From: a bacterium
GTDB lineage: Bacteria; Bacteroidota; Ignavibacteria; Kapaibacteriales; UBA2268
Assembly (NCBI GenBank): GCA_024711295.1
Contig: JANJTB010000028.1
Span: 124,001 to 188,000 of the forward strand
DNA: 64,000 nucleotides
Direction of reading: 5' to 3'
Shown piece after piece: positions 47,843-64,000 of the stretch; within the stretch, counting starts at the first letter, position 1, and each line of letters opens with the position of its first letter. Below the pieces are notes generated by a model. That model was not told the DNA's origin. It did no database searches and was given only the letters and a program-made list of their open reading frames with translations. A program made the position numbers and the translations under genes.

Positions 47843-48286
47843 TTATTCTCCAATATCTTCATTCCAAATCTCAGGTTTCTCTCTGATGAAATCAGCCATC
47901 ATTTTTATACAATCTTCATCATTCAGCACAACAACTTCAACTCCGTTATCCTTCAATAGTTTTTCAGAGCCCATAAAATTAGTATTTTCACCGATTACAA
48001 TCCTGGGGATCTTATATAGCAGTATAGCACCTGTACACATTGGGCAAGGGGATAGAGTAGTATACAAAGTACATTCATTATATACAGAAGCCTTAAGTCT
48101 GCCGGCATTCTCAAGTGCATCCATTTCGCCATGTAGTATGGAACTTCCGCATTGAATTCTTTTGTTATGGCCTTTGCCAATAACCTGATTACCATGTACA
48201 ATTACAGAACCTATCGGTATTCCGCCCTCATTCAAGCCATTCATAGCTTCTTCAATTGCTACTTTCAAAAAATCAATGTGCGACAT
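47843..48286 (-). CDS. Yeast-type cytosine deaminase
   Basis: 147 residues from the ATG at 48286; a second ATG two codons upstream is equally possible. The CDA-fold zinc site is complete: His52 and Glu54 in LHGEMDALEN, Cys81 and Cys84 in SPCPMCTGAIL. The PRIVIGENTNF segment and the C-terminal PEIWNEDIGE closely follow fungal Fcy1-type cytosine deaminase rather than TadA or bacterial amidohydrolase-type CodA. It would convert cytosine to uracil in the cytosol. The start lies inside the 3' end of the histidine kinase gene, so the two are translationally coupled. Confidence 0.82.
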   Translation of the reverse strand: MSHIDFLKVAIEEAMNGLNEGGIPIGSVIVHGNQVIGKGHNKRIQCGSSILHGEMDALENAGRLKASVYNECTLYTTLSPCPMCTGAILLYKIPRIVIGENTNFMGSEKLLKDNGVEVVVLNDEDCIKMMADFIREKPEIWNEDIGE

Positions 48287-50123
48287 CTTCATTATGCTCA
48301 ATCTTTGGTAAACGAATTTTAAATTTACTACCCTCACCTGGTTTGCTTTCTGCCCAGATATTGCCACCATGTCTTTCAACGAATTCTTTGCAGAGTATTA
48401 ATCCAAGACCTGTACCTTTTTCTTTTGATGTACCAAGTGTCGTTACATTTACGTCAATTCTGAATAATTTGTCAATAATATCACTTGTCATGCCTATTCC
48501 GTTATCATTAACAAATATATTAATTGATTCAGGTTCGGCAAAGGACTCAATGGTTATAATACCTTTCTCAGGTGTGAATTTGATTGCATTTGATATTAAA
48601 TTTCTTATTACAGTTGTCATCAAATTTGGATCTGCAATTAAGAAAGTATCCGGACTTACATCATTGTTAATATGAATTGATTTTGTATCAGCATTTATTC
48701 TGTGGAGACTTATGGTGTTTTCCACTATATCACGCAGGTTGAACCTTACTGGATTAAAATCAAGAGTGCCACGTTGCGTCCTTGACCATTCCAACAGATT
48801 TTCCAATAGAGAATGAATATTTTCTGAAGAGTGTTTAAGCATTTCAAGAAATTCCTTCCTGTCATCTTCCGAAAAATCATCGTAAGATTCGTGTAATAAT
48901 CTTGTTATTTCCTTGAATGAACCAAGTGGATTACGAAGGTCATGAGCAATAATCGAAAAGAACTTGTCCTTGGTTGCATTCAGGTCATGTATGTCGTGAT
49001 AAGCATGTTCCAATTCAATTTTCGCTTTTTCAATTTCCTCTTTTTGTTTTGATAAGATTAAGTTTTCAGCTTTTTTCCTTCTTATCTGAAACCATAGCAT
49101 CACACCCATTAACATAACCAAAACTACTATAGCAATTAGCAAATAGTTGATTTTTTTATTAAATTCAGAGATTGTTTGAAGATCATTCAGGCTTAGTTCC
49201 ATTTCTAAAGCTGTAAGTCCTTGTTTCAGTTTTTCCTTCGATGCATTATTCTCTAAATCACTGAGCTTTTCGAGATAGACAATGACTGAATCTTTTAAAC
49301 CAACTTTCTTGTATATTGAAATAGCTTTCTGATAGGCATTGTTCAACTCATAATTAGCTTCGTTGGATTCTAAAATTTTAATTGACTTTTCTATATATGA
49401 AATAGCATCATCATAGTTTTTTTGGAGCATTTTCAGCTCTGCAAGACTAGTGTAATTTTCGGCAATCTCACTTACTATCCCTGTACTATCTAAATAAGAA
49501 ATGGACTTATTATAATAGTAATACGCTGAGTCAAACATTAATTTTGTGGTGAAAAGATCTGCCAAATTATTTAAATTATTAGCTATTATGGAAGAATCTT
49601 TCGGACCGCACAGGTTGAGACTTTGGTGATAATAATAAAATGATGAATCAATATTATCCAAGTCCCTGTGCATATCACCAATTCTATTCAAAATTGTTGC
49701 CCTTACTATACTGTCGTTAGAAGAAGAATATTGATAAGACATTTTAAAGTATTCGACAGACTTTTTGTAATCCTTGAGATGACGGTAAACAGCACCAATC
49801 ATAGAATAAGATTTAGATAGCATTACAGAATTATTAGACTTCTTAAAATAATCTTCTGATTCAAAGTATTTTTCTAATGCTTTGTCATTAAATCCCTTTT
49901 TTGAATAATACCTGCCAATATAATAACTTTTAAGACCCATTAAAGTGGGGTCAATTTTATCATTATTTTTATTTAAGCTGAGTGAGAAAATTAAAAGTGA
50001 ATCAATATTGTTTTTTTCGTAATATTCAAAATTCTCTTTAAGTGTACTATAATTATGATCTTCTTTGGGTTTGCAACCTAGAATACTTATAAAAATTAGT
50101 AAAGCTGCTAAAAGTTGATGCAT
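48273..50123 (-). CDS. TPR-containing lipoprotein sensor histidine kinase
   Basis: 616 residues from the ATG at 50123, which begins a clean lipoprotein signal (MHQLLAALLIFISILGC, lipid Cys17). The longer open frame reaches back to 50357 but would overlap tmRNA. About seven TPR units fill residues 40-330, probably in the periplasm, followed by a membrane helix (YLLIAIVVLVMLMGVMLWF), a coiled linker, HisKA with FFSIIAHDLRNPLG, and HATPase with NLISNAIKFTP and KGTGLGLILCKEF. No response regulator is adjacent. It overlaps the cytosine deaminase gene at its end. Confidence 0.87.
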   Translation of the reverse strand: MHQLLAALLIFISILGCKPKEDHNYSTLKENFEYYEKNNIDSLLIFSLSLNKNNDKIDPTLMGLKSYYIGRYYSKKGFNDKALEKYFESEDYFKKSNNSVMLSKSYSMIGAVYRHLKDYKKSVEYFKMSYQYSSSNDSIVRATILNRIGDMHRDLDNIDSSFYYYHQSLNLCGPKDSSIIANNLNNLADLFTTKLMFDSAYYYYNKSISYLDSTGIVSEIAENYTSLAELKMLQKNYDDAISYIEKSIKILESNEANYELNNAYQKAISIYKKVGLKDSVIVYLEKLSDLENNASKEKLKQGLTALEMELSLNDLQTISEFNKKINYLLIAIVVLVMLMGVMLWFQIRRKKAENLILSKQKEEIEKAKIELEHAYHDIHDLNATKDKFFSIIAHDLRNPLGSFKEITRLLHESYDDFSEDDRKEFLEMLKHSSENIHSLLENLLEWSRTQRGTLDFNPVRFNLRDIVENTISLHRINADTKSIHINNDVSPDTFLIADPNLMTTVIRNLISNAIKFTPEKGIITIESFAEPESINIFVNDNGIGMTSDIIDKLFRIDVNVTTLGTSKEKGTGLGLILCKEFVERHGGNIWAESKPGEGSKFKIRLPKIEHNEDVAH

Positions 50124-50288
50124 ACATTTTCTATAACAAGTTCTAAAAATTATAATTTGAGTTTGAAATAAATAAGTAGTTAAAAGTAAGAAAAAACGGA
50201 CAAATATATGCTTTTTTATTTTATTATGGTTATAATACTTAAAGTGTAATAAATTAAACTCTATATTCTTACGTCCACAGTTCAGTAA

Positions 50289-50649
50289 GGGGATGTAACG
50301 GATTCGACGGGGTGTCGGATTGTTGATGTCGCATGTCGTGCTCAATCGGTGGTGCACGTAAATACAACCGGTATTGCAATAAATGCAGAAAATAACTACG
50401 CTTTAGCTGCCTAATTAAATTTACGCAGCTCATCTCACTAAAAATGTGCCTGTTCATTTTTCCTGAGGTGTCGCAAACTAACAGGATAGTTCATTAGTGT
50501 GTGCTTAGCTAATGAGTGAAACCAAAAAGCAATCGGAATTGGAAACCTGTTTGTCGGTTATCCCAATTTTCAAAAAATATAGATAAACTACACATGTAGT
50601 GACTCAATGTGAAGCTCTTCGGACGCGGGTTCAACTCCCGCCATCTCCA
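50289..50649 (+). ncRNA. ssrA: Transfer-messenger RNA (tmRNA)
   Basis: About 361 bases on the plus strand. The 5' end GGGGATG pairs with the 3' end CATCTCC, with one G-U pair, and the discriminator is A; CCA is not encoded. The TTCGACGGGG block after the acceptor and the T-arm-like GCGGGTTCAACTCCCGC at 50625-50641 are diagnostic. It rescues ribosomes stalled on broken mRNAs together with SmpB. It is divergent from the TPR kinase and followed by a terminator. Confidence 0.95.
50385..50414 (+). other. tmRNA proteolysis-tag reading frame
   Basis: The resume codon GCA starts a nine-residue tag, A-ENNYALAA, followed by TAA at 50412. The NYALAA end matches the ClpXP/SspB-type degron of other bacteria. 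The tag is shorter than the E. coli one (AANDENYALAA). Confidence 0.9.
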
Positions 50650-50662
50650 CAAACCAATCTTT

Positions 50663-50689
50663 AAAACCCTGACTGTGTCGGGGTTTTTT
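50663..50689 (+). terminator. Intrinsic terminator of tmRNA
   Basis: The stem AAAACCCTGAC/GTCGGGGTTTT with a 3-base loop is followed by TT and A. It begins 14 bases after the tmRNA 3' end. Confidence 0.85.
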
Positions 50690-50945
50690 AGTTTATATTT
50701 TACTACTTCATTGATTAAAATAAGGATATTTGTCTTAAATATTTGGTTTTTTGAATATTCTATTTGCTTAGTATAAATATTATAGCTATTTTTAATAATC
50801 AGATATTGAATATTTTGCAAGTATTTTCAATATCAACTTACTGATTGCGTTATTTTTTTGCTTCTTCAGTATAAAAGCCCAAAAAGGCGAACTGACAAGC
50901 GAAGGAAGTAATGTAATTATTTTATAATTATTTAGGAGAAGAGAA
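50690..50945. other. AT-rich spacer holding a remnant signal peptide
   Basis: No intact gene is seen. In frame at 50838-50927 lies LLIALFFCFFSIKAQ, a convincing Bacteroidota signal peptide with a cleavage-like AQ, then 14 residues and a stop. There is no upstream start codon in frame. I read it as the 5' scar of a lost secreted-protein gene. Confidence 0.45.
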
Positions 50946-51491
50946 ATGAAAATATTAATTGTGATTATTCTTGCAACTTTGATTTATCCATTTCAATTAT
51001 TCTCACAATATTTTTTAGGAGAAATCACAAAAAAATCCTTTTTAATTATAGCTTTAAATGAAAATCAATTTGATTTTGTATCATTAGAAAAGGGAACATT
51101 AGTAATACTTAACGATCAAAAACCTGTCAATGGATATTTCACTTGTTATGATATAGAATCTGAGAAATTAGGTATAATAGATAGTAAGAATGTTAAAGTT
51201 CATAAAGAAATAATAAAGCAAGAAAATTCTCAAATTCAATCTCAAAGTTATTCACAGTATTATGAGCCTCGAATTCATATTTTTAATAATACTAGTATCA
51301 AATTGAAGCTACAAATTGGAGGAAATAAATATGAATTTAAACCAAAAGAAAGAAAAACAATTATACTACAACCAAAAGATTATCATTATATTGCTTCTGG
51401 AACAAATGTAGAGTCGTGTTTCGGAACAGAATCGTTTAAATCTAATTATGAATATCAATGGGAATTTTATATAATGACAAAATATCGGTAA
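50946..51491 (+). CDS. Hypothetical secreted protein
   Basis: 181 residues. AGGAGA lies 8 bases before the ATG. A signal peptide (MKILIVIILATLIYPFQLFSQ) is followed by a beta-rich mature protein with IHIFNNTSIKLKLQIGGNKYEF near the middle, a fold-like stretch reminiscent of small immunoglobulin-like domains, and no known motif. The DNA is more AT-rich than its neighbours. It sits alone in the decayed patch after ssrA and is followed by a plus-strand terminator. Confidence 0.62.
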   Translation: MKILIVIILATLIYPFQLFSQYFLGEITKKSFLIIALNENQFDFVSLEKGTLVILNDQKPVNGYFTCYDIESEKLGIIDSKNVKVHKEIIKQENSQIQSQSYSQYYEPRIHIFNNTSIKLKLQIGGNKYEFKPKERKTIILQPKDYHYIASGTNVESCFGTESFKSNYEYQWEFYIMTKYR

Positions 51492-51588
51492 TTGTTATTA
51501 AAAGAGATAATTATTGTATTTTTATCGACTTTGTAAAAAATAGCTTACAAATAGCAGATGTAATTGTCATTCTTTAATTGTTAATTCC

Positions 51589-51611
51589 AGCCCTTCCCCC
51601 AAAGGGCTTTT
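51589..51611 (+). terminator. Hairpin terminator downstream of the 50946 gene
   Basis: AGCCCTT pairs with AAGGGCT across a 6-base loop and is followed by TTTTC and, after a few bases, six T. The T run is on the plus strand only. Confidence 0.65.
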
Positions 51612-51818
51612 CTACTTTTTTGAAAAGCCAAAAGGCACTAACTTTTGTTTGGCAACTAATTGTTCTGTTTCTTGGCGTGCTCTTAGGAAAAATTCGGCAA
51701 GTTTTCGGGCTTCTTTGTCAAACTTAGCCCCGTCCATTTCTTTAAGATGTTGTAATTACTTTAGCATCGAAAAGAGTATTTTTTGGACCATTCCTCTACG
51801 GAGTTGTTGAAATATCAA
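51612..51818 (-). pseudogene. Decayed gene fragment with an internal stop
   Basis: On the minus strand an open stretch encodes QQLRRGMVQKILFSMLK, then TAA, then in the same frame about 47 residues with LKEMDGAKFDKEARKLAE and a basic end (PFGFSKK). The codon use and charged helical pattern look like real protein, and the single in-frame stop and missing upstream part point to a remnant. The 41-residue piece from the ATG at 51737 could in principle still be translated. I do not recognise the family. Confidence 0.4.
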
Positions 51819-51977
51819 TCAAATATTTTGTTTTTGAAGTGTTAAAAATCCAGTCTTACTTACAGGGAAATATTATAACCGGCTTTATCTCGAATATTTT
51901 TATTTTCACTCATATATACAATATTTTCATAGATTAATTATCTTTATTTCAATTTAGACTATAATTTACTTACTGAT

Positions 51978-54032
51978 ATGAAAACGGGAAAATATTTAAT
52001 TGTTTTGTTATTATCTTTATTATTACACTCTTGCAATGAAGAAAATCCTGATTTAGTAAATCCACCCGACAAAACAGCTTCAATCAGATTTAGATTTTTA
52101 AATTTAGGTTATGATAATAATCCAAAGGTTCTCGAGGTAACTGAAGGTGCGCGAACTCCCTCAATATATAAGGGGGGCGTCTCGGAATCATTTAATCCTC
52201 TTGCTGATACTGGTTTCGTCAGAATTTACAAAAATGACAATACTGAATTTGAACAAACTCAAATGGTCAGGTTTATCAGAAATACAAATTATACTTTTTT
52301 GGGATTGAGTTCTTCAAAATGTGATGACAGAACACAATGTAGAATTGATACCATCATTCCATTGCGGACAACATCTGCTATACCTGAGAATAATTTCGAG
52401 TCGCTTTTAAAATTTATAAATGCATTCCCTGATTCTACTGTAAGAATTACCTTAAGAATGGGGTGCCCGAATGGTGAACCACTGTTTCCTACCTATGGCT
52501 ACAAGCAGTATTCTTTTACACCTATAACTGTACGATCAGGTGCTTTGAATTTCTCAGTTTTTTTGACAAGTAATGGTGCACAAGGTCCCATAAATACTTA
52601 TTTGGATTTGTATTCTGTTGATTTATCACCAAAAGGTCAATATACCATAATAGCTCACGAAGACGAATCGGGCAATCTGAAAATCAGTATTTTAGATGAA
52701 AATGATTTGAGTCCTAATGCCATCAAACCAGCGCAAATTGTACCTTTACGCACTACCGAAATCAGAACTGTAAATTTATCTACACTTGACTTATCTGTGC
52801 ATCTCAAACAATCAGGAATTGTTGATGATAATGTACCTTCGCTTACCATTGATGATTTTAGAAGTGTCGAAGTCTGCAAGTCTTCATCGTCTGATACTTT
52901 GGAAATAGTTTATAACAACTCATCAAAGTCAAATATAGTGACTTCTCTCGATGTTTTGAGTAAATACACCCTAATCGTTTACGATTCTGCTGATGTTAAG
53001 GCAGGTGGAGCCATTTTAATTCCACCACCCAAGCTGAACGTTGATATCGAAGGAAAAGCTCTTGTTAGGGTTGTAAATACACTTGAATCTGCAACAGGTA
53101 TTAATGTTTCAATAGGCGCCAGATTGGAATCAGACAGGGTTAACTTTGTAAATGGTTTTAGTTCGGGTATTTCATTGGCATCTAGATTAAGATTTACTGA
53201 GGTGTCTCAATATACGGCATTAAATCCCGGTCCGGGTCCAATAAGTGTATTTACTGCATCTGATCCGGCAAGATTATTGTTTGCTACTAACACATATTTT
53301 GAAGCAAATAAGCAATACTTGATAATTGTGACTAAAGATGATTTTGGAAATATTAAGTTAACGATAGTTGACGAAGATGACCAATCCAAGAAAGTTGATT
53401 ATCTTATTAAAGGAATATTTTTTCAATTAGTTAATGCAACAACAGATAACAGTAACATTAATGTTAACATCAATTCAATATCAACAGGCAAAAAGATTCT
53501 TGAAAATGCTACTGTTCAGGTATCAAATTCTATAGCTACTGTTATAGATGAAGATTTTCAAATTGTCAACATTAACGGAAAAGAATATACTACAAATGCT
53601 ACTGATGATGAACGAGTAATATGTGTGGCTTCAGGTACTCAACAGGATTTTAACTTAATTACCAGCAAATTCAAACCACTAAGTATTGATCAAAACAATA
53701 TTTTTAGGGTAAGATTTGTAAATGCAACACTTGATATGCAATATGTTAAGTTAAGAAAAAACCTTCAGGATTCGGTATTCTTCGAAAGTGTTGAAAAAAA
53801 TACTTTTTCATCTTATAATGTTGAAACAAGAGAACAAAAGCCAACTTTTTTCTTTTTTGAGGACGAAAGCAAGGGATATATATCGCGTTTTAGCGATGTT
53901 TTGATGTCCTTGGGAAAAAGTTATAGTATCATTCTTTATGGAAATTCGGGTAGAGAGTGTTTTAAATATTACGATTCACAAGCTAAAGTAGAACCTAACT
54001 GCTACTCATTTATTATTCAACAGGAGTTTTGA
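51978..54032 (+). CDS. DUF4397-domain lipoprotein
   Basis: 684 residues. A lipoprotein signal ends at Cys19 (LLLHSCNEEN). The rest contains several repeated beta-sandwich units with VRVVNTLESATGINVSIGA, FFQLVNATTDNSNINVNIN and FRVRFVNATLDMQYVKLR, the DUF4397 pattern. It is probably displayed at the outer membrane. It overlaps the subtilase start in TGATG, so the two are translationally coupled. DUF4397 proteins have no agreed function; binding or adhesion is inferred. Confidence 0.8.
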   Translation: MKTGKYLIVLLLSLLLHSCNEENPDLVNPPDKTASIRFRFLNLGYDNNPKVLEVTEGARTPSIYKGGVSESFNPLADTGFVRIYKNDNTEFEQTQMVRFIRNTNYTFLGLSSSKCDDRTQCRIDTIIPLRTTSAIPENNFESLLKFINAFPDSTVRITLRMGCPNGEPLFPTYGYKQYSFTPITVRSGALNFSVFLTSNGAQGPINTYLDLYSVDLSPKGQYTIIAHEDESGNLKISILDENDLSPNAIKPAQIVPLRTTEIRTVNLSTLDLSVHLKQSGIVDDNVPSLTIDDFRSVEVCKSSSSDTLEIVYNNSSKSNIVTSLDVLSKYTLIVYDSADVKAGGAILIPPPKLNVDIEGKALVRVVNTLESATGINVSIGARLESDRVNFVNGFSSGISLASRLRFTEVSQYTALNPGPGPISVFTASDPARLLFATNTYFEANKQYLIIVTKDDFGNIKLTIVDEDDQSKKVDYLIKGIFFQLVNATTDNSNINVNINSISTGKKILENATVQVSNSIATVIDEDFQIVNINGKEYTTNATDDERVICVASGTQQDFNLITSKFKPLSIDQNNIFRVRFVNATLDMQYVKLRKNLQDSVFFESVEKNTFSSYNVETREQKPTFFFFEDESKGYISRFSDVLMSLGKSYSIILYGNSGRECFKYYDSQAKVEPNCYSFIIQQEF

Positions 54033-57000
54033 TGTATAAATATGTAATCATCTTTTTAATTTTTATATATTACGAATCAATACCGCAGTCATATAATATT
54101 TTTTATGGCGGCAAAAAAGTTTCAACAAACTATTATCAGCCCGTAAAGATTTTTGAGATATTAAAACCTGCAAAAGGAGATTACATTGAGAATCAGTTTT
54201 ATGTTAAGACAAAATTTAATATGTCTGAATCTGAGCTCGAAAAAGAGTTATATCAGTCGTTGTATGCCAATGGAATAAGAAATATTGAATTTAGCAATGT
54301 GGAATCACCTTTTAAAAAATATTTCCCGTCTGAATTACTAAGCAACTCAAAATATAATTTAGATTACATTTTCAGAGTTACGTACATGGGCGATACAGAA
54401 GTCTTCGAGATTTGTAAACTCTTATCATCTAATCTGAACTACGAATATATAGTACCTGCAATTAATTATAAATTGCTTGATTCAAAACCTAATGATTCCA
54501 GAATCAATAGCCAATGGTATATGGATAGCATCAAAATTTTTCAATCATGGGATAAGACTAAAGGTACTAAATCAATAATAATTGGAATTGTTGACTCCGG
54601 AACTGATCTAAATCATGAAGATTTGAAATCACAAGTTTGGACTAACCCTAATGAAATACCTAGTGATGGAATTGACAATGATGGTAATGGATTTATTGAT
54701 GATGTCAATGGTTGGGATTTTGTAGGTAATATAAATCTTACAGATGCAATTTTGGGGAATTTCAAACCTGACAATAATCCTGTACCCATTCTAATAAGTA
54801 ATGACCACGGAACCCATGTAGCAGGTACAGCAGCAGCAACTACGAATAATAACTTAGGCATAGCATCAACAGGGTATGATGTTAGGTTTATATCTACAAA
54901 AAATGCCTTAGATGATCTAAATAAGTCCAGGTTGGTTTATCGTCCTTTCGAAGCAATGATGTATCTTGCATCAATGGGTGCAAAAGTAATAAATTGCTCT
55001 TGGGCTAGCAGCTATTACGACCCCTTAGCTTGGGATGTTGTGAATGAACTTCTTGACAACAATGTTTCAATAGTTGCTTCAGCAGGAAATGAAGATTTTT
55101 GGACTGATTTTTATCAATATTATCCTGCTACTATACCAGGTGTTATAAGCGTCGGTTCTGTAAACAATCAAGGAACTAGATCTTATTTTTCAAATTACGG
55201 TGTTAGAGTGAACTGCTTTGCTCCTGGTGAAGCTATTTTATCAACAGTAAACGACAACAGATATTCATCAAAAAATGGTACATCTATGTCCTCGCCGGTT
55301 GTTAGTGGATTTATAACAAATTTAGTTAATAGATTCCCAAATTACGACAACAAACAAATCTTTCATCAAATAAGAAGTACACTTACCAAATTTGATAATC
55401 AAACACCTTTACTAAGTGGTAAGCTAAATTGTCTGAGTGCCATAAATTATAATTATGCCGGAACCGGACTTAATATCCCGGGAATTGAAATAAGTTCCAT
55501 CGAGATTGACGGGAATTCATCTATTAATAATTTTGGTAATACCAGAATAAAATTGAACATTATAAACTATCTTTCGAATGCCCAAAACGTAATTATTACA
55601 TTATCACCCCAAGATGACTATTTTACTTTTTCAGAATCAAAAATTAACTTAACTGTTCTCAATTCAGAGCAAAATGTAGCTAAAGAAATTGATTTTATTT
55701 TACGGGATAATTGCCCATGGTTCGAGGGTGAAGCAACAGTTTTTGTAAAAATTGAGTCTGGAAATTATATCAATTATCAACTTATAGATATACCGATAAT
55801 ATTAAAGTCTAATAATAAACACATTCTCGCCTCAAATTTCCCTGAAAGTGATAATTTTAGATGGTATGAATCTGCTGTTGGTGGAGATTTTCATCACGCA
55901 GTTGTTGGATACGACTTGAATTCCAAAAGAGGTATAATACATCAATTCTCAACATTTACAGGAGTATTATCACCCACAAAAGACACAGTTACCTGTATAG
56001 ATTTCTTCGATGATTTAAACTATATTGTAGGTTCAAACGGTGTAGATGGCAAAACTGAAATTTTCAGCTATTTCGGAACAATAAGTAAAGACATCAGCCA
56101 ATATTTGTCATCAATTAAAGACCTCTCATTTAAGGACAAAGATAATGGTTATATAATTGGAATTGATGCAAACAGTTCTTTACCTGCAGTATTGTACACA
56201 AATAATGGTGGAAACTCATTTATTAAAACGAATATTCCAGGAATTACCAATTTAGATAAATTTTCAACTAATATTAGTAAAAGAGAAAATTTAAATCTTT
56301 GGGGAACTGTAAACGGAAGAATAATTTATACACCTGACGGCGGGAAGAGTGCCAATTTGATTAACACAAAATTGGGCAATTATATTATGATGGTTGAAGC
56401 AATCAGTATAGATACATTTTTTGTATTTTCTTATAACTCCAACAGCGGCTTTAAACTTCACAAAACTCTTAATAAAGGGATTACTTTTATTGATATTACT
56501 CCAAATGAAATTGACTTGACCAAAGCAGTGAAAATTTTTATTCCGGATGGATCTAACCATTTATATATAGTTATGAAGGATACAAGAATTTATAAAACTG
56601 TTGATATGGGAAACAATTGGTTGATGGAATTAAATAAACAATATAAATTAGACGGCTTTTCGCATGCAACACTTTTTTCTAAAAGTGGTAGAGCAAGGTT
56701 ATGGATGAGTGGTTTTGATATTAGATACTTAGACTTCGAATATTTACCTCAGAATGTAGTATATGATTTGAAAATAGCCGGAAAACAAAATTTAGATTTT
56801 GATACATTGAAGATTTTTGATAGTTATGAAGAAACAATTTTTTTAAAAAACAATGGAAACTACAAGGCTACAATCGAAAGTCAGGAATTTTCGAGTGGTG
56901 AAGTATTTAGTTTGTCCTTACCTTTTAAAACTATAATATCTCCTGGTGAGTTAGCAAGTGCAGATCTAAAGTTTGCTCCTGAAAAAGTAGGATTATTTTA

Positions 57001-57343
57001 TGATACATTAACTATAAAAACCACTGAAGGTAATCAGATTATCAAATTCGTAATGCAGGGTGTTGGCGACGATCCATCAAATATGGTTGAAGGTCCTTTG
57101 AAATATGATTTTAACATATCCAAGCTTGGAGAAGTATATTTAATTAAATCAGATGATTTTTTTCAAAAAGTCACAACTTTAACTGTTTCTGATTTACAAG
57201 GGAATAAACTGACTAATTATCGAATATCTCCCGGCGAAAAATATGTAGAATTGGATTTCAGCAAATATCCTCAGTCAGTATATGTAGTGAACTTAACAAA
57301 TGAATTATTTAGCAAGACATTTAAAATAATTGAAATTAAATAA
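54032..57343 (+). CDS. Secreted subtilisin-like (S8) serine peptidase
   Basis: 1103 residues from the ATG at 54032; AGGAG lies about 6 bases upstream. A signal peptide is followed by a short propeptide and the S8 catalytic domain at about 155-470, with Asp188 (GIVDSGTDLNHED), His259 (NDHGTHVAGT) and Ser418 (NGTSMSSPVV). A DNDGNGFIDD loop may bind calcium. Later parts are a BNR/sortilin-like propeller (about 600-930) and an ASH-like beta domain (about 935-1020). The final 75 residues resemble a T9SS tail in strand pattern but lack PNP. It is likely exported and active on proteins outside the cell. Confidence 0.88.
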   Translation: MYKYVIIFLIFIYYESIPQSYNIFYGGKKVSTNYYQPVKIFEILKPAKGDYIENQFYVKTKFNMSESELEKELYQSLYANGIRNIEFSNVESPFKKYFPSELLSNSKYNLDYIFRVTYMGDTEVFEICKLLSSNLNYEYIVPAINYKLLDSKPNDSRINSQWYMDSIKIFQSWDKTKGTKSIIIGIVDSGTDLNHEDLKSQVWTNPNEIPSDGIDNDGNGFIDDVNGWDFVGNINLTDAILGNFKPDNNPVPILISNDHGTHVAGTAAATTNNNLGIASTGYDVRFISTKNALDDLNKSRLVYRPFEAMMYLASMGAKVINCSWASSYYDPLAWDVVNELLDNNVSIVASAGNEDFWTDFYQYYPATIPGVISVGSVNNQGTRSYFSNYGVRVNCFAPGEAILSTVNDNRYSSKNGTSMSSPVVSGFITNLVNRFPNYDNKQIFHQIRSTLTKFDNQTPLLSGKLNCLSAINYNYAGTGLNIPGIEISSIEIDGNSSINNFGNTRIKLNIINYLSNAQNVIITLSPQDDYFTFSESKINLTVLNSEQNVAKEIDFILRDNCPWFEGEATVFVKIESGNYINYQLIDIPIILKSNNKHILASNFPESDNFRWYESAVGGDFHHAVVGYDLNSKRGIIHQFSTFTGVLSPTKDTVTCIDFFDDLNYIVGSNGVDGKTEIFSYFGTISKDISQYLSSIKDLSFKDKDNGYIIGIDANSSLPAVLYTNNGGNSFIKTNIPGITNLDKFSTNISKRENLNLWGTVNGRIIYTPDGGKSANLINTKLGNYIMMVEAISIDTFFVFSYNSNSGFKLHKTLNKGITFIDITPNEIDLTKAVKIFIPDGSNHLYIVMKDTRIYKTVDMGNNWLMELNKQYKLDGFSHATLFSKSGRARLWMSGFDIRYLDFEYLPQNVVYDLKIAGKQNLDFDTLKIFDSYEETIFLKNNGNYKATIESQEFSSGEVFSLSLPFKTIISPGELASADLKFAPEKVGLFYDTLTIKTTEGNQIIKFVMQGVGDDPSNMVEGPLKYDFNISKLGEVYLIKSDDFFQKVTTLTVSDLQGNKLTNYRISPGEKYVELDFSKYPQSVYVVNLTNELFSKTFKIIEIK

Positions 57344-57869
57344 AAAATATTTTGTTGTAGTCTTTTTTGTTTTTTGGGGATTAATAATAGGAATTGTTGG
57401 ACCCAATTTATCTTTTATTTATAATAAAAAGGTTATAAATAAAGAGATTAAAAGGCAAATAAGAGAAAATCTCATAGATGGAAACTTCGAAATATTGGAA
57501 ATACCAATTGTCAAATATAATGACAAATATTTCTTTAAATGGATACATTCAGCTGAATTCAGATATAATGATAAGATGTATGATATTGTTGACGGAAATA
57601 AAACGTTAAGGACTGATAGTTCAATTATCTTTTATGTTGTCAATGATACAAAAGAAGAGCAGTTACTTAAAGAATTTGTTCTCTCAGACAAAGCAAAGCC
57701 ATACTCCAATCTTATCAAAAAAATGAAGTTAATAAGTCTCGAAGTTTTTGAATCAGAATATCAAGAGAATATATTAACTGAATTTGCTTACAATTTTTTC
57801 CCATATTACAAATCTAAGGTATTATCCCTTAAATTTGATTTGTTAGACCCTCCACCCAAAACATATTAA
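57330..57869 (+). CDS. Small single-span protein next to a TonB receptor
   Basis: 179 residues with a TTG start, overlapping the subtilase by 14 bases. One N-terminal membrane helix (FVVVFFVFWGLIIGIVG) is followed by a soluble region with FKWIHSAEFRYNDKMYDIVDG and YVVNDTKEEQLLKEF. Similar small proteins often sit next to TonB-dependent receptors in Bacteroidota; I recall the pattern but not a named family. Role inferred: accessory to the receptor that follows after 89 bases. Confidence 0.6.
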   Translation: MKLNKKYFVVVFFVFWGLIIGIVGPNLSFIYNKKVINKEIKRQIRENLIDGNFEILEIPIVKYNDKYFFKWIHSAEFRYNDKMYDIVDGNKTLRTDSSIIFYVVNDTKEEQLLKEFVLSDKAKPYSNLIKKMKLISLEVFESEYQENILTEFAYNFFPYYKSKVLSLKFDLLDPPPKTY

Positions 57870-57958
57870 ATAAATAATCACTTTCAAATTTTTAATTAGC
57901 TCAGTTAAAAAACTCCTGAGTTGATTATATATTTATTTTATTATATAGGGACAAAGAA

Positions 57959-59968
57959 ATGACTAAGATTTATTTTGTAATAATTATTTTTAAAATTATC
58001 CTGTTACAGAATATTGCCTATTCAAGTCAGAAAAGTGACAGCTTAAAGGTTTATCAGTTAGGTGATATAAGTGTAACAGGTATGGGTTCAAAATCAAGTA
58101 TATCGCAAGTAAATATTAATACATTAAACTATTTCAATATCCAAAAATCTGATGTTTCTTCAGCAGCCGAGCTACAATTATATATCCCATCTGCAAGAAT
58201 AAGAACCAACTCAAGGGGAGAGTCTATGTTGTTTTTGAGAGGTTCCGGTGAACGTCAGCTTGGGTTGTTTTTTGATGGTGTACCACTTAATGTAGCATGG
58301 GATAATAGATTTGATTTAAGTATGTTACCAACTGATATAATTGGTAAAATGGATATCAATAAAAACTCAAATTCTATCATTTATGGCGCAAACGTTATGG
58401 GTGGAGCAATTAGTATAAGTACAATCGAAAAAGCAAACGATGGCTATGGTGCTAATATTAGGTTGCAGGGTGGATCAGCCGGTTTATATCAATATGCATT
58501 GACTCATGATGGTAGAGCTGGAAATTTTAATTATTTGATTAGTGCCGGGAAAACACAAAATGATGCTTTCACAATATCTGATAAAAGACCTGACTCTCTT
58601 TTGAATCAAAATAATAATTCCGGACTTAGAGACAACACTTTTAGAAGTTTTACAAATCTTTATTCGAGGATTGAGTATAATTTTGATGAGAGTGCAAAAC
58701 TTGGTTTATCTGTGCTTAATATTAATGGTGAAAAAGGAGTTGCACCTGAAACCCATATCGAGAATGCACGATTTTGGAGATACCCTGAATGGAATAGGAC
58801 AATTTTTGCAATTAATGCTTCAGCATTTTTGAATTCTACAGGCAATTTAAGATTAAGAACTACAGCTTGGTATGATGTTAATCACCAACAAATTAATTCC
58901 TATTCTGACAATAATTATGATTCTGTTTTTCAGAAGCAAAAGGATAATGACATTACATTGGGAGCCAGAATTGCTCTTGTATGGGATTTACACAGAAATC
59001 ATTTATTCCAGTTTACTTCAAACTCATATTATACAAGTCATGAAGAAATTATTGATAACAATTCACCATTAAATTATTCACAATCAGTATTTTCAAACGG
59101 ATTAAGTTATGAGTATAATATTAACAAGTTTGATCTAAGTACAGGGATTGTGTATGATTACATTGTTACTGGTAATTCAGGTGTGTTTGAAGACTATCAG
59201 AATTCAACTATGGGTGATTATGGGTACTATGCAAGTATTAAGTACGGATTTGACGATAAAACAGCAATTTTTGCTAATTATTCATTAAGAACAAGATTTC
59301 CTACATTGAGAGAATCTTACAGCGGTGCATTAGATAGATTTGTTGCAAATCCTAATTTGAAACCAGAAACGGGAAATTTGATTGAAATTGGTATTAACAG
59401 AAGCACATTTGAATATACGTCAGAGTTTTCATTGTTTGCAAATTTATATGATGGATTAATCGAGCAAATCAGATTAAGCAAAGAACAAGATGAGCTTAGA
59501 AGAAGAATGAGGATTAATTACTCCAGTGCTGATATTTTGGGAGCTGATTTATCTTTAAGATTCTACCCTCTGAACAATTTTGATGTTGATGTGAATTTTA
59601 CATATCTATATGCTTCCGGATATCAAGATTCAATCAAGCTTGACAAAATTGATAATCGTCCTGAGTTTTTGACAGGTGTTATTCTGAAATATAAGTATAA
59701 CTTTGGGTTAACGTTGCAAGGTGAGTTTGAATCTACAGGAAAGCAGTATGAAAGATCGCCTGATGATATTTCAAGGTTTGTTGAAATTGGTGCAACTTCA
59801 ATAATAAACTTCAGATTATCGTATCAGTTTAATACTAATCTAATTAGTGGTGAATCATTAGAACTTTTTGCAAGAGTAAACAATATTGCAGATACTTATA
59901 GGATATCTCAACTTGGATTACCTGAGCAGGGAAGGGTATTGCTGGCGGGATTTAAAGCTCACATTTAA
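57959..59968 (+). CDS. TonB-dependent outer-membrane receptor
   Basis: 669 residues. After a signal peptide comes a plug domain at about 30-150 (GDISVTGMGSK, LRGSGERQLGLFFDGVPLN, IIYGANVMGGAISIST), then a beta-barrel of alternating strands ending in the aromatic-type strand GRVLLAGFKAHI. There is no N-terminal carboxypeptidase-like or FecA-type signalling domain. The substrate is unknown. The gene follows the subtilase and the small membrane protein, so uptake of a peptide, metal or haem released by the protease is a reasonable inference. Confidence 0.9.
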   Translation: MTKIYFVIIIFKIILLQNIAYSSQKSDSLKVYQLGDISVTGMGSKSSISQVNINTLNYFNIQKSDVSSAAELQLYIPSARIRTNSRGESMLFLRGSGERQLGLFFDGVPLNVAWDNRFDLSMLPTDIIGKMDINKNSNSIIYGANVMGGAISISTIEKANDGYGANIRLQGGSAGLYQYALTHDGRAGNFNYLISAGKTQNDAFTISDKRPDSLLNQNNNSGLRDNTFRSFTNLYSRIEYNFDESAKLGLSVLNINGEKGVAPETHIENARFWRYPEWNRTIFAINASAFLNSTGNLRLRTTAWYDVNHQQINSYSDNNYDSVFQKQKDNDITLGARIALVWDLHRNHLFQFTSNSYYTSHEEIIDNNSPLNYSQSVFSNGLSYEYNINKFDLSTGIVYDYIVTGNSGVFEDYQNSTMGDYGYYASIKYGFDDKTAIFANYSLRTRFPTLRESYSGALDRFVANPNLKPETGNLIEIGINRSTFEYTSEFSLFANLYDGLIEQIRLSKEQDELRRRMRINYSSADILGADLSLRFYPLNNFDVDVNFTYLYASGYQDSIKLDKIDNRPEFLTGVILKYKYNFGLTLQGEFESTGKQYERSPDDISRFVEIGATSIINFRLSYQFNTNLISGESLELFARVNNIADTYRISQLGLPEQGRVLLAGFKAHI

Positions 59969-59987
59969 ATTGTTAAATTAAATGTTT

Positions 59988-60019
59988 AGGCGGTTAGGTC
60001 GTACTTAACTGCCTTTTTT
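59988..60019 (+). terminator. Intrinsic terminator after the TonB receptor
   Basis: The 9-bp stem AGGCGGTTA/TAACTGCCT, with one G-U pair, is followed by a run of six T. It closes the DUF4397-to-receptor operon. Confidence 0.85.
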
Positions 60020-60082
60020 AATTAAACTATTATTTATATAATCTTGTCTAATACTATATTATTAATTAGTGTTTGACATGAC

Positions 60083-61387
60083 ATGAAAATTTGCTTATTA
60101 ATTTTATCGGTTTTCATAATTCATTTATCATCGACAAATGCAAACGAATTATATATACCTGACACCAACATTTCAAATTGGGTAAGAATAAATCCTGATG
60201 AGCTAAATTGGAACTCTGAAATCATAGACTCATTGTTTGAATTTTTAGATTACAAAAATACAAAATCATTCATAGTTCTTAAAGATGGCAAAATTGTTAT
60301 TGAAAAGTACTTTGGGAATTTTAAACAGGACAGTATCTGGTATTGGGCATCAGCAGGTAAAGTAATCAATTCATCACTAATAGGTATTGCAGAAGGTGAA
60401 GGTAAACTTTCGATTATGGATGAATCATCGAAATATTTGGGAAGTAACTGGACTTCACTGACTACTGAACAAGAAAATAACATTAAAATAATTCACCAAC
60501 TTACTATGACAACGGGGTTAGATGATGATGTTGATGACCTGTTCTGCACTAAACCGGAATGTTTGAAATTCAAAGCACAGGCAGGAACAAGGTGGTCTTA
60601 TCATAATGCTCCTTATACTTTATTAGATAAAGTTCTTGAAAGTGCTAGCGGAAGAAGTTTCAACCAATATTTTGCAGAAAAAATTCGTAATAAGGTTGGG
60701 ATGAATGGTTTATGGATCAAGCAAGATTACAACAATGTATATTTTAGTAACTCTCTATCTGTTGCAAGGTTTGGAATACTTGTTCAAAATGATGGGAAAT
60801 GGAAAAACAATGAAATTATTATTCCGCAAGATTATCTCAAAGATATGGTAAACTCAAGTCAGGAATTGAACAAATCTTATGGTTATCTATGGTGGTTAAA
60901 TGGAAAAGATGGATTTATGTTGCCAGGTTCTCAATTTGTAATCGAAAAATTGTTATTTCCTGACGCACCAATTGATATGATAGCTGCTTTGGGCAAGAAT
61001 GGGCAAATATTAAATATCTCGAAGGAATTGGGATTAGTTGTGGTTCGATTGGGTGATAATCCCGGCTATGCTTTGGCTGATATTACACCGGTATTTAACA
61101 ACGATATTTGGAAATACTTAAATCGTATTATGGATGTAAACTCTATAATTCAAAACAACAATGATTATAATGTTTATCCAAATCCTATAAAAGATTTTGT
61201 AACGGTTAACGGGAAAGCAGGAGATTTGATTACTATTTCAGATCTTTTGGGACGTGTATTTGTAAGTTATATGTTTGACAATGATGGACTAATAAATTTA
61301 AATTTGTCAAGTTTTACCTCAGGTCAATATTTTATGAATCATAAATCTATATCCGGCAATAAAACTATAAAATTGATAAAAGAATAA
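60083..61387 (+). CDS. T9SS-secreted serine hydrolase of the beta-lactamase/esterase fold
   Basis: 434 residues. A signal peptide ends near residue 20. The penicillin-recognising fold has SXXK as SAGK (Ser90, Lys93) and YXN as Tyr173-His-Asn175; the third box is not obvious. This is the class C beta-lactamase-like esterase/peptidase family. The C-terminal 70 residues (VYPNPIKDFVTVNG to TIKLIKE) are a type A T9SS sorting domain, so the enzyme is probably displayed at the surface. The substrate (ester, D-amino peptide) cannot be told. It is monocistronic. Confidence 0.85.
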   Translation: MKICLLILSVFIIHLSSTNANELYIPDTNISNWVRINPDELNWNSEIIDSLFEFLDYKNTKSFIVLKDGKIVIEKYFGNFKQDSIWYWASAGKVINSSLIGIAEGEGKLSIMDESSKYLGSNWTSLTTEQENNIKIIHQLTMTTGLDDDVDDLFCTKPECLKFKAQAGTRWSYHNAPYTLLDKVLESASGRSFNQYFAEKIRNKVGMNGLWIKQDYNNVYFSNSLSVARFGILVQNDGKWKNNEIIIPQDYLKDMVNSSQELNKSYGYLWWLNGKDGFMLPGSQFVIEKLLFPDAPIDMIAALGKNGQILNISKELGLVVVRLGDNPGYALADITPVFNNDIWKYLNRIMDVNSIIQNNNDYNVYPNPIKDFVTVNGKAGDLITISDLLGRVFVSYMFDNDGLINLNLSSFTSGQYFMNHKSISGNKTIKLIKE

Positions 61388-61389
61388 AA

Positions 61390-61421
61390 AAACTGCTTAA
61401 GAAATAATTCAAAAGCAGTTT
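61390..61421 (-). terminator. Terminator of the peroxiredoxin gene
   Basis: The 9-bp stem AAACTGCTT/AAGCAGTTT has a 14-base loop. On the minus strand it is followed by a run of seven T; the plus strand lacks a T run. Confidence 0.75.
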
Positions 61422-61445
61422 AGATCTAAACTTAATAATTTTGTT

Positions 61446-61997
61446 TTAGTTCAGTGTATCTTCGCCTGAATTCCAGTTACATGGAGTAAGCTTACCTGAC
61501 TGCAATGCAGCCAATACTCTGATTATTTCTTGAGTATTTCTACCAACTGACTCAGGATGTACAACTGAATAAACTAATTCTCCTTCAGGGTTGATAATAT
61601 AAGTGCCACGTAAAGCATAACCGGTTTCTTCTTTTAAAACTTCGTAGTTACGTGCTGTAACTCTTGTAAAATCAGCAAGCATTGGGAAAGGTAAATTTCT
61701 TAAACCAGGATGTGAAGAACGCCATGCCAAATGTGAGAAATGGCTATCTGTAGAGCATGCAACAACTTCGCAATTCATTTCTTTAAAAGTTTTGTAGGCA
61801 CGTCCAAAATCTTCAATTTCAGTAGGACATACAAATGTAAAATCCAGAGGATAAAAGAATAGTACCAACCATTGACCACGATAATCATTCAAACTTATTT
61901 CTTTAAATGCTGAATCTGGATTAAGCGATAAAGCATCACCACCAATAACTGCTGTTCCTCTAAAATCCGGTGCAGGTTTTCCAACTAAAAGACTCAT
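61446..61997 (-). CDS. 2-Cys peroxiredoxin (AhpC/Tsa type)
   Basis: 183 residues. The peroxidatic Cys57 lies in FYPLDFTFVCPTEI and the resolving Cys173 in LTPCNWNSGE, so it is a typical 2-Cys enzyme. It reduces hydrogen peroxide and organic peroxides in the cytosol with a thioredoxin- or AhpF-type partner, not in the window. AGGAGA precedes the ATG. It is divergent from topA. Confidence 0.93.
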   Translation of the reverse strand: MSLLVGKPAPDFRGTAVIGGDALSLNPDSAFKEISLNDYRGQWLVLFFYPLDFTFVCPTEIEDFGRAYKTFKEMNCEVVACSTDSHFSHLAWRSSHPGLRNLPFPMLADFTRVTARNYEVLKEETGYALRGTYIINPEGELVYSVVHPESVGRNTQEIIRVLAALQSGKLTPCNWNSGEDTLN

Positions 61998-62152
61998 TAA
62001 AATTCTCCTGTTAAATATAAAAAAAACACAGAAATCATAAGCAAAAACGTGAATTAATGAATGATATTGTTAAAAGAAATTACTTATTTTGCAATGCAAA
62101 TTTGTTATAATCGTAAACTTATTTTCATATTAATCAAAAAGTAAAATCTTGT

Positions 62153-64000
62153 ATGAGTAGTTCGAAATCTATTAAATCATTAGTTATTGTAGAATCACCG
62201 GCGAAGGCCAAAACTATAGAGAAAATCCTGGGAAGTGATTACTTAGTTAAGTCAAGTATTGGCCATATAAGAGACCTTGCTAAAAATGAAATGTCAATTG
62301 ATATAAAGAATGGTTTTAAACCTAAATATGAAATATCTCCTGATAAAAAGAAAACGGTAAGTGAATTAAAGAAATTAGCAAAAGATAGTGAAACTGTTTG
62401 GCTTGCTACGGACGAGGATCGCGAGGGCGAAGCAATTGCATGGCATTTGTGTGAAGCATTAGGGCTTGATTATAAGGAAACAAAGAGAATTGTATTTCAT
62501 GAGATTACAAAAAATGCTATACTTGAATCTGTAAAAAATCCCAGAACTATTGATAAAAATCTAGTAGATGCCCAACAAGCCAGAAGGGTACTTGACAGAC
62601 TTGTAGGATACGAACTTTCTCCTGTACTATGGAAAAAAGTCAAAAAAGGCCTTTCCGCTGGCAGAGTTCAATCTGTCGCTGTTCGCTTAATTGTTGAAAG
62701 AGAAAGGGAAATTTTAAATTTTAACCACGAAGCATCATTTAAGATAATTGGTGAATTTTTGACTGAACAAGGTAAAAAATTTACAGCAGAGCTCAAAACC
62801 AGATTTTTAAATCTCGATGAAGCAATTAATTTTTTAAACAAAATTTCAGATTCAACTTTTACCGTTAGTGATTTAACAGTTAAACCATCCAAAAGAACTC
62901 CATCTCCACCTTTTACTACTTCTACATTGCAGCAGGAAGCAAGCAGAAAGCTTGGATTCTCTGTTAAACAAACCATGGTTGTGGCTCAAAAGCTTTATGA
63001 ATCAGGTAAAATTACTTATATGAGAACTGATTCGTTAAATTTATCTGAAGTAGCTATCAACGCAGCGAAAGAGTTTATTGGAAGTGAATATGGTGATAAG
63101 TATGTTAAGCCAAGAAGATTTAAGACTAAGAACGAGTCAGCTCAGGAAGCTCATGAAGCAATTCGCCCTACAAACATGTCAACAATTGACATAAAAGGTG
63201 AACGTGACCAACAGAGATTGTATGATTTAATTTGGAAAAGAACAATTGCCAGCCAAATGGCTGATGCTGAATTGGAAAAAACAACAGCTACCATTGAAAT
63301 TGATAACTCAAACGAAATTTTTATTGCGAATGGAGAAGTAATAAAGTTTGATGGATTTCTTAAGATTTATCATGAAGATATTGATGATGATAATTCAAAT
63401 GAAGATGAAAACAGCAAAATGCTTCCATTTTTGAGAAAAGGTGAAAATCCAATACGCGAAAAAATTACCGGTCGTCAAGTTTTCAAAAAACCTCCTGCAA
63501 GATATACTGAAGCAAGTTTAGTAAAAAAACTAGAAGAAATGAGTATCGGGCGACCTTCTACTTATGCTCCGACCATAAGTACAATTCAAGATAGAGGATA
63601 TGTTGTTAAAGAAGATAGAGATGGTAAAGAAAGACAATATTACAGTGTTGAACTCACAAGCGGAAAAGCAGAATATAATTTAGAGACTGAGACTTATGGT
63701 ACAGAAAAATCAAAGCTATTTCCTACTGATATGGGATTTGTAGTTAATGATTTTCTCGTTAAGTATTTTCCTAGTATAGTTGACTTTAACTTCACTGCAC
63801 AAGTCGAAGAGGAATTCGACAACATAGCTGACGGGAAGTTGAAATGGCAGGATATGATTAAGGCGTTTTATAATCCTTTTCATGACACTATCGAGCAATC
63901 TCAGCAAATTAAGCGTGAAGATGCCGTTCAGTCGAGAGAGTTAGGTCTTGATCCTAAAACAGGTAAAATGATATATGCCAAGATTGGTCCCTATGGTCCA
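62153..64000 (+). CDS. topA: DNA topoisomerase I (partial, 3' end off the window)
   Basis: 616 codons from the ATG at 62153, still open at the window edge. The TOPRIM domain (VIVESPAKAKTIEKIL with TDEDREGEAIAWHL) is followed by the type IA core, with the gate region QQARRVLDRLVGYELSP and the active tyrosine in GKITYMRTDSLN. The visible end (KTGKMIYAKIGPYGP) begins a C-terminal repeat domain, so only the tail is missing. It relaxes negative supercoils. It starts 156 bases from the divergent peroxiredoxin gene. Confidence 0.95.
   Translation, partial: MSSSKSIKSLVIVESPAKAKTIEKILGSDYLVKSSIGHIRDLAKNEMSIDIKNGFKPKYEISPDKKKTVSELKKLAKDSETVWLATDEDREGEAIAWHLCEALGLDYKETKRIVFHEITKNAILESVKNPRTIDKNLVDAQQARRVLDRLVGYELSPVLWKKVKKGLSAGRVQSVAVRLIVEREREILNFNHEASFKIIGEFLTEQGKKFTAELKTRFLNLDEAINFLNKISDSTFTVSDLTVKPSKRTPSPPFTTSTLQQEASRKLGFSVKQTMVVAQKLYESGKITYMRTDSLNLSEVAINAAKEFIGSEYGDKYVKPRRFKTKNESAQEAHEAIRPTNMSTIDIKGERDQQRLYDLIWKRTIASQMADAELEKTTATIEIDNSNEIFIANGEVIKFDGFLKIYHEDIDDDNSNEDENSKMLPFLRKGENPIREKITGRQVFKKPPARYTEASLVKKLEEMSIGRPSTYAPTISTIQDRGYVVKEDRDGKERQYYSVELTSGKAEYNLETETYGTEKSKLFPTDMGFVVNDFLVKYFPSIVDFNFTAQVEEEFDNIADGKLKWQDMIKAFYNPFHDTIEQSQQIKREDAVQSRELGLDPKTGKMIYAKIGPYGP

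Follow-up and report, generated by a model that had tools for sequence, protein, structure and literature searches.

Introduction

The described systems closest to the locus considered here are small leader proteins that carry proline motifs near their C-terminus. CruR acts as the leader for the TonB receptor BfrG, which it controls via copper, and has a C-terminal RAPP motif at a fixed distance from its CXXC motif (PMC9426467, PMC12914433). A further report describes CutF as a copper sensor that is exported, carries a proline motif at its C-terminus and controls the next gene, and of which no stable protein was detectable; the accompanying screen for CutF-like proteins of fewer than 150 amino acids gave 29 similarity clusters, all with Cys/His sites (PMC9973294). 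In two surveys, TonB receptors are found among the genes downstream of RAPP/RGPP arrest peptides (PMC12992588), and Sec/YidC-linked arrest peptides include an LPPP motif as well as Bacteroidota motifs ending in proline (PMC10987492). The present analysis concerns a small protein gene that lies directly before a TonB-dependent receptor gene at positions 51,978 to 59,968 of a 64,000-nucleotide stretch (the window; contig JANJTB010000028.1, assembly GCA_024711295.1) from a bacterium of the Kapaibacteriales, where a DUF4397 lipoprotein gene and an S8 subtilase gene precede these two. The stretch consists of two conserved gene pairs joined in this lineage and, as judged from sequence, the small protein belongs to an unnamed, phylum-wide, proline-tailed and leader-like family. 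We favour, with somewhat better than even confidence, the reading that it is a nascent-chain sensor and the leader of the receptor gene.

The small-protein family

The family was searched for with a model built on a 14-row alignment including the tail, which matched 75 of 395 genomes drawn across Bacteroidota, about a fifth. Since that model contained the tail, the search was repeated with a tail-less model cut before the prolines; it also matched 75 of the 395 genomes (73 shared with the full model) and the tail is, therefore, not an artefact of the model. The loci read comprised 70 beyond the order-level set (four of them duplicates) and 20 more distant ones. Two full-model matches (G194 and G266) and two tail-less-model matches (G046 and the second match in G090) were left out, one locus (L241 of G098) is cut by the contig edge, and weak single-sequence matches, with E values of 0.07 to 0.26, were not taken into the family.

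Neither Pfam nor NCBIfam holds a model that scores over its cut-off for the window small protein or the 14 family members. DUF2946 is absent among the Pfam hits of the same proteins, a list from which most matches weaker than E 0.1 are removed by the filters of HMMER. Phage records gave no match to the window small protein, the family having otherwise been sought only in Bacteroidota. The family is not described in the literature searched, which did not cover the supplementary lists of PMC9973294, so overlap with these is possible.

Members are 166–226 residues long in 77 of 78 cases, with one of 132 residues. A hydrophobic N-terminal helix is present in the model of the window protein as well as in the 14-row alignment. 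The AlphaFold2 model (14 alignment rows; mean predicted local distance difference test score, pLDDT, 73.7) is a weak one, in which a helix at residues 5–50 is followed by strands between 53 and 105; in a Foldseek comparison, no chain of the PDB matched it with an E value of 0.001 or lower, which says little given the weakness of the model. The core is marked by near-invariant residues, namely E76 (75/78), D106 (73/78), Y84 (70/78) and D85 (69/78), while position 103 is Cys in 65 of the 78 members and Val in the window protein. A conserved Cys/His metal site is absent among the 78: there is no conserved Cys pair, CxxC or CxxxC occurs in one member and HxH-type motifs in 14.

The proline tail and its fixed spacing

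All 78 members with a called frame have PP within their last 15 residues, and 62 of them have PPP, a sequence that occurs nowhere else in any of the 78. RAPP, RGPP and RAGP are found in none of them, the tail being mostly a plain (T/S)PPP(K/R/E). Control frames from the same loci have PP in that place in 5 of 226 cases and PPP in none, and 70 length-matched control frames have neither. In the 78-row alignment, no column other than those of the two prolines is invariant. PPP is also kept in three members missed by the frame caller, and PP in all 20 distant members whose end is complete. All 101 evaluable members thus have a C-terminal PP, which in 98 falls within the last 15 residues; the remaining three continue for 15–21 residues after PPP.

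The distance from D106 to the prolines is 67–81 residues (median 75, standard deviation 2.4). The range does not change among 56 representatives with less than 40% identity (standard deviation 2.5), even though linker identity is 8.7% as against 31% for the core. Counted from the prolines, Y/L at −11, L at −10, S at −9, F at −7 and K/R directly after them are enriched, with p-values that ignore relatedness; the window protein has VLS at −11 to −9. By eye, the last 35 residues have no helix-like hydrophobic pattern.

As a separate observation, one 7-Mb genome (G296, L255–L258) holds five copies of the family, all PP-tailed and, as read by eye, mostly placed before genes unlike TonB receptors.

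Genes downstream of the small protein

The nearest downstream frame lies on the same strand at 77 of 77 loci, with gaps of −7 to 471 bases; the seventy-eighth locus (L231) has no downstream frame before the contig end. A TonB Plug domain is found in the next gene at 67 of these loci. The other ten next genes are two DUF6851 genes, one each of the CMD-family, MFS and MetA types, and five without a model, and the distant loci have similar classes of next gene as read by eye. Given that the next gene is a receptor in most cases and something else in ten, a leader or regulator fits better than a component of protein uptake. Moreover, the tail is kept whether or not the next gene is a receptor, which favours a leader acting in cis over a tail that docks to the receptor.

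Seen from the side of the receptor, close homologues (E 2e-66 or better) occur in 22 genomes, the window's own included, and in eight of these the small protein directly precedes them. In six further genomes it precedes other TonB receptors.

A proposed nascent-chain sensor

In the proposed mechanism, the N-terminal helix would take the translating ribosome to the membrane, and the core (E76, Y84, D85, D106, E109) would emerge across the membrane at a time when the translocon and the ribosome still enclose the C-terminal linker. The ribosome tunnel holds roughly 30–35 residues and the translocon about as many again, so that the core would be just outside when the prolines are decoded. Poised at PPP beside the stop codon, the ribosome would stall or not depending on binding or folding of the core, and the stall state would set expression of the downstream receptor gene in cis. 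The sequences themselves establish the family, its gene order with a same-strand neighbour, the invariant tail and the fixed spacing, whereas export, stalling, sensing and control are inferred.

How Bacteroidota choose which TonB receptors to make is, to our knowledge, largely open. If the arrest is real, control of TonB receptors by leaders would reach past copper and past RAPP-type motifs as listed in the surveys, and the ligand would give a lead to the substrates of receptors so far unassigned.

Several points weigh against this proposal. Such a leader gene is missing beside 14 of the 22 close receptor homologues. At two of these loci (G023 and G015) the contig ends just upstream, after 2 and 196 bases, respectively; no PP-tailed frame lies upstream in 12 of the 14, these two included, and the PP frames in the other two (G008 and G057) have only 55–56 residues and were judged to be chance. 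The frame upstream of the small protein gene is on the same strand at 53 of 78 loci and often near (divergent at 22, none in the flank at three), and in the window the small gene overlaps the subtilase gene and is not the first in its transcript. The linker has helix-like hydrophobic spacing at about +28 to +38 from D106, so some of the constraint on its length may come from folding. Elongation factor P (EF-P) normally relieves plain PPP pauses, and PPP alone may, therefore, not hold the ribosome. Since the core is a conserved folded domain, the small protein may also act after its synthesis. The literature searched holds no stalling experiment on this family. As regards RNA, the intergenic regions are no more structured than co-directional controls (mean z of −1.20, controls −1.38; p 0.46), and pairing at the next start does not differ (p 0.35). 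An RNA switch at the leader-receptor junction was rejected, as its first apparent excess (p 4e-4) came from a looser control and two tighter tests were null.

Weighing of alternative explanations

The small protein could instead function in its mature form, as a periplasmic protein that is anchored in the inner membrane and partners the receptor or TonB, with the PPP tail as a docking motif. The folded and conserved core with near-invariant acidic and aromatic residues speaks for this, as does a receptor as the next gene at 67 of 77 loci; however, the tail is equally conserved before DUF6851, CMD-family, MFS or MetA-type genes, a flexible docking tail has no need of a linker of fixed length, and 14 of 22 close receptor homologues lack the gene beside them. 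A partner role is thus regarded as possible, yet rather doubtful. Chance adjacency of four ordinary genes (lipoprotein, protease, small hypothetical protein, receptor), the small protein having no regulatory role, agrees with the lineage-specific junction of the two pairs; it is nevertheless very improbable in view of the invariant tail and of the tie, across the phylum, between the small protein and a same-strand downstream gene that is mostly a receptor.

A fourth explanation treats the whole stretch as one system, in which the lipoprotein binds protein, the subtilase cuts it, and the small protein and the receptor import the peptides. The shared direction, the short overlaps and the single terminator-like site speak for it, as does a part of the lipoprotein that resembles the ectodomain of PepT, which binds trypsin (PMC4597091). 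Gene order was followed in 60 related genomes, the window's own included, with each of the four proteins as query, and the four families stand together in only one of the 60, the window's genome itself. For the four as a unit, this is the outcome that the preliminary description had named as refuting. The receptor is apart from the lipoprotein in the 21 relatives that have a close receptor homologue, and no finding links the window receptor to peptides. The four-gene module was consequently rejected as a conserved unit, a refutation that already holds largely, and as an explanation it is very improbable. The reading of the small protein as a nascent-chain sensor and leader is the one favoured.

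Layout of the locus and junction of the two gene pairs

The features of the locus, all on the forward strand of the window, are as follows.

51978..54032, + strand: DUF4397 lipoprotein gene (open frame and Pfam)
54032..57343, + strand: S8 subtilase gene (ATG at 54032; TTG also at 54029)
57330..57869, + strand: small protein gene, 179 residues, TTG start, no Pfam or NCBIfam model over cut-off
57849..57857, + strand: PPP codons (residues 174–176, three residues before the stop; read from the sequence)
57893..57927, + strand: predicted hairpin of 12 pairs, after the small gene and ahead of the receptor start (arms 57893–57904 and 57916–57927; minimum-free-energy fold)
57959..59968, + strand: TonB-dependent receptor gene (Plug and barrel over Pfam cut-off)
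59988..60014, + strand: terminator-like hairpin followed by five T (terminator scan)

The preliminary description had read these genes as four frames in one direction, with overlaps and a terminator-like end, and this is borne out in coordinates and in detail: the lipoprotein and subtilase genes share one base (stop TGA at 54030–54032, start ATG at 54032–54034, together TGATG), and 14 bases are common to the subtilase and small frames. Its gene identities likewise stand, DUF4397, Peptidase_S8 and the TonB plug and barrel each scoring over the Pfam cut-off. Because of the overlaps, a single common transcript for the four genes is likely. The terminator-like site alone is modest evidence, since 7 sites of this type were scored over 11 kb as compared with 3.7 in shuffles. 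A sigma-70 scan (74 sites against 59.8 in shuffles) pinpointed no promoter, and a scan for TTTG-N17-23-TANNTTTG, which we take to be the promoter consensus, gave 7 sites over the whole window (against 5.9), not one of which precedes these four genes on their strand.

Elsewhere the two pairs are apart. For 20 of the 21 relatives, neither a lipoprotein nor a subtilase match falls in the stretch around the close receptor homologue; in the other, G023, the receptor is on a different contig from the lipoprotein and subtilase. In all seven relatives that have the pair of small protein and receptor, it is away from the lipoprotein. Two genomes of the same genus carry the lipoprotein pair and the receptor pair on different contigs. 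As the pairs are separate even within the genus, the window represents a lineage-specific junction of the two. The preliminary description, which had taken the stretch for a surface module that binds, cuts and imports protein, is thus partly supported: binding and cutting keep their footing, as the lipoprotein and subtilase genes are neighbours in 16 of 55 genomes of two families, while the receptor, and with it import, is part of the other pair.

In the flanks, a tmRNA gene (window positions 50289–50652, 189 bits) is the sole Rfam match in 48000–62500. It is overlapped by the start of a histidine-kinase frame (48273–50357), for which reason that start was probably called too far upstream. Just past the terminator-like site, positions 60083–61387 encode a serine beta-lactamase-family protein with a clear type IX secretion system (T9SS) tail (38.3 bits).

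The lipoprotein and subtilase pair

The lipoprotein scores 48.5 bits for Pfam DUF4397 (cut-off 30.6). Its family is order-wide, with one match in each of 59 of the 60 genomes; the DUF4397 domain itself occurs at two other places in the window's genome. Seven further records hold relatives, all of them metagenome-assembled genomes, labelled Ignavibacteriae, Ignavibacteria, Bacteroidota, Bacteroidetes, Chloroherpeton (two) and Desulfobulbaceae. In many genomes the lipoprotein gene is divergent from a gene that, by eye, resembles release factor 1.

The window protein has the lipobox LLLHSC followed by NEENPDLVNPP, and most homologues have an N-terminus with a lipobox and then an acidic ENP-x-LVNPP stretch. 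Acidic residues after the lipobox Cys follow the rule for surface export, and on the strength of these residues the lipoprotein is probably surface-exposed. Its AlphaFold2 model is all-beta (pLDDT 89), and the tandem immunoglobulin (Ig)-like part at residues 256–467 resembles the extracellular domain of PepT2 (Z 16.3, root-mean-square deviation 3.3 over 187 residues), although likeness to that fold alone shows no function for the lipoprotein. The trypsin-binding ectodomain of PepT2 is proposed to keep the protease where peptides are taken up (PMC4597091). By analogy, a protease held by the lipoprotein is a fair guess for this pair.

The subtilase scores 137 bits for Peptidase_S8, has the Asp, His and Ser motifs and an Ig-like/ASH domain, and has homologues in 60 of 60 genomes. 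It is the gene next to the lipoprotein in the 16 of 55 evaluable genomes mentioned above, with gaps of −49 to 255 in 15 of them; the count is out of 55 because 4 of the 59 genomes have a contig end immediately after the lipoprotein gene. Por_Secre_tail is below its cut-off in the window protein (14.7 bits against 27) and over it in 8 of 10 tested relatives, out of 15 adjacent to the lipoprotein; the subtilase thus probably has a T9SS-type C-terminal tail and would be exported by that system. In a tree of 36 rows (the 16 lipoprotein-adjacent subtilases and 20 others hand-picked from the homologue list), the adjacent ones are scattered, with 7 changes required for adjacency, and the tree thus does not demonstrate that the pairing arose only once.

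The receptor

The Pfam Plug (46.6 bits) and TonB barrel (71.6 bits) models both score over their cut-offs. The best NCBIfam model is a haem receptor, at 77.7 bits and far under its cut-off of 316.85, and the nearest solved chain is PhuR (6.1e-6); the sequence thus bears a weak likeness to haem receptors.

Distant paralogues of the window receptor (26–30% identity) were seen at four loci, L164–L167 (G007 C1, G034 C81, G001 C5 and G010 C3), where, with frames read by eye, they adjoin ECF-type membrane proteins, MobA/MobB-like genes and molybdopterin oxidoreductases. They are candidates for an outer-membrane receptor for molybdate, tungstate or a cofactor.

Comparison with described leaders and arrest peptides

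The anatomy of the family is that of the known proline-tailed leaders, and each of these is matched in part. Like CruR, the DUF2946 protein encoded before bfrG in Bordetella, the small protein is encoded directly upstream of a TonB receptor, has a proline motif a few residues from its C-terminus at a fixed spacing from the putative sensor and would be exported; unlike CruR, which uses RAPP and a CXXC copper site, the family has no RAPP-like sequence (0/78), CxxC/CxxxC in 1/78 members and no DUF2946 match, and it was found in Bacteroidota. With the CutF-like proteins (Rhodobacter cutFOG and the 29 clusters) it shares PP within the last 15 residues and a next gene on the same strand, and the N-terminal export signal of those proteins may have its counterpart here in a predicted hydrophobic helix; it differs from them in its length (166–226 residues in 77/78 members) and in lacking a conserved Cys/His site. 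The RAPP/RGPP arrest peptides ApcA, ApdA and ApdP are likewise small exported or membrane proteins with C-terminal prolines, some of them encoded before TonB receptors (PMC12992588), yet the sequence after which they are named is absent from the present members. As defining features of each of the CruR, CutF and RAPP types are thus wanting, the family is not filed under any of them.

A parallel is offered within the related genomes by HYC_CC_PP (NF047658), a separate Cys-rich family within the same taxonomic order, which was matched in 20 of the 60 genomes and had no match in the window's own; its model is not among the NCBIfam hits of the 14 small-family members. Of ten HYC_CC_PP loci viewed (L268–L277), eight had a readable frame and six of these eight have PPP near the end. 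These proteins, too, are small and, by eye, lie upstream of TonB-receptor-, RND-efflux- or thioredoxin-like genes; in contrast to the present family they are rich in Cys (HYC, CC) and have a longer tail after PPP. The resemblance suggests a parallel leader-like family.

On balance, we give an even chance to the broader proposition that the small proteins constitute phylum-wide nascent-chain sensors, in which a linker of fixed length, arrest at a plain PPP and an acidic and aromatic core with a ligand other than copper would serve to control TonB receptors and other genes in cis. If so, exported leaders would comprise a third kind next to those of CruR and CutF, one to which the RAPP rule does not apply.

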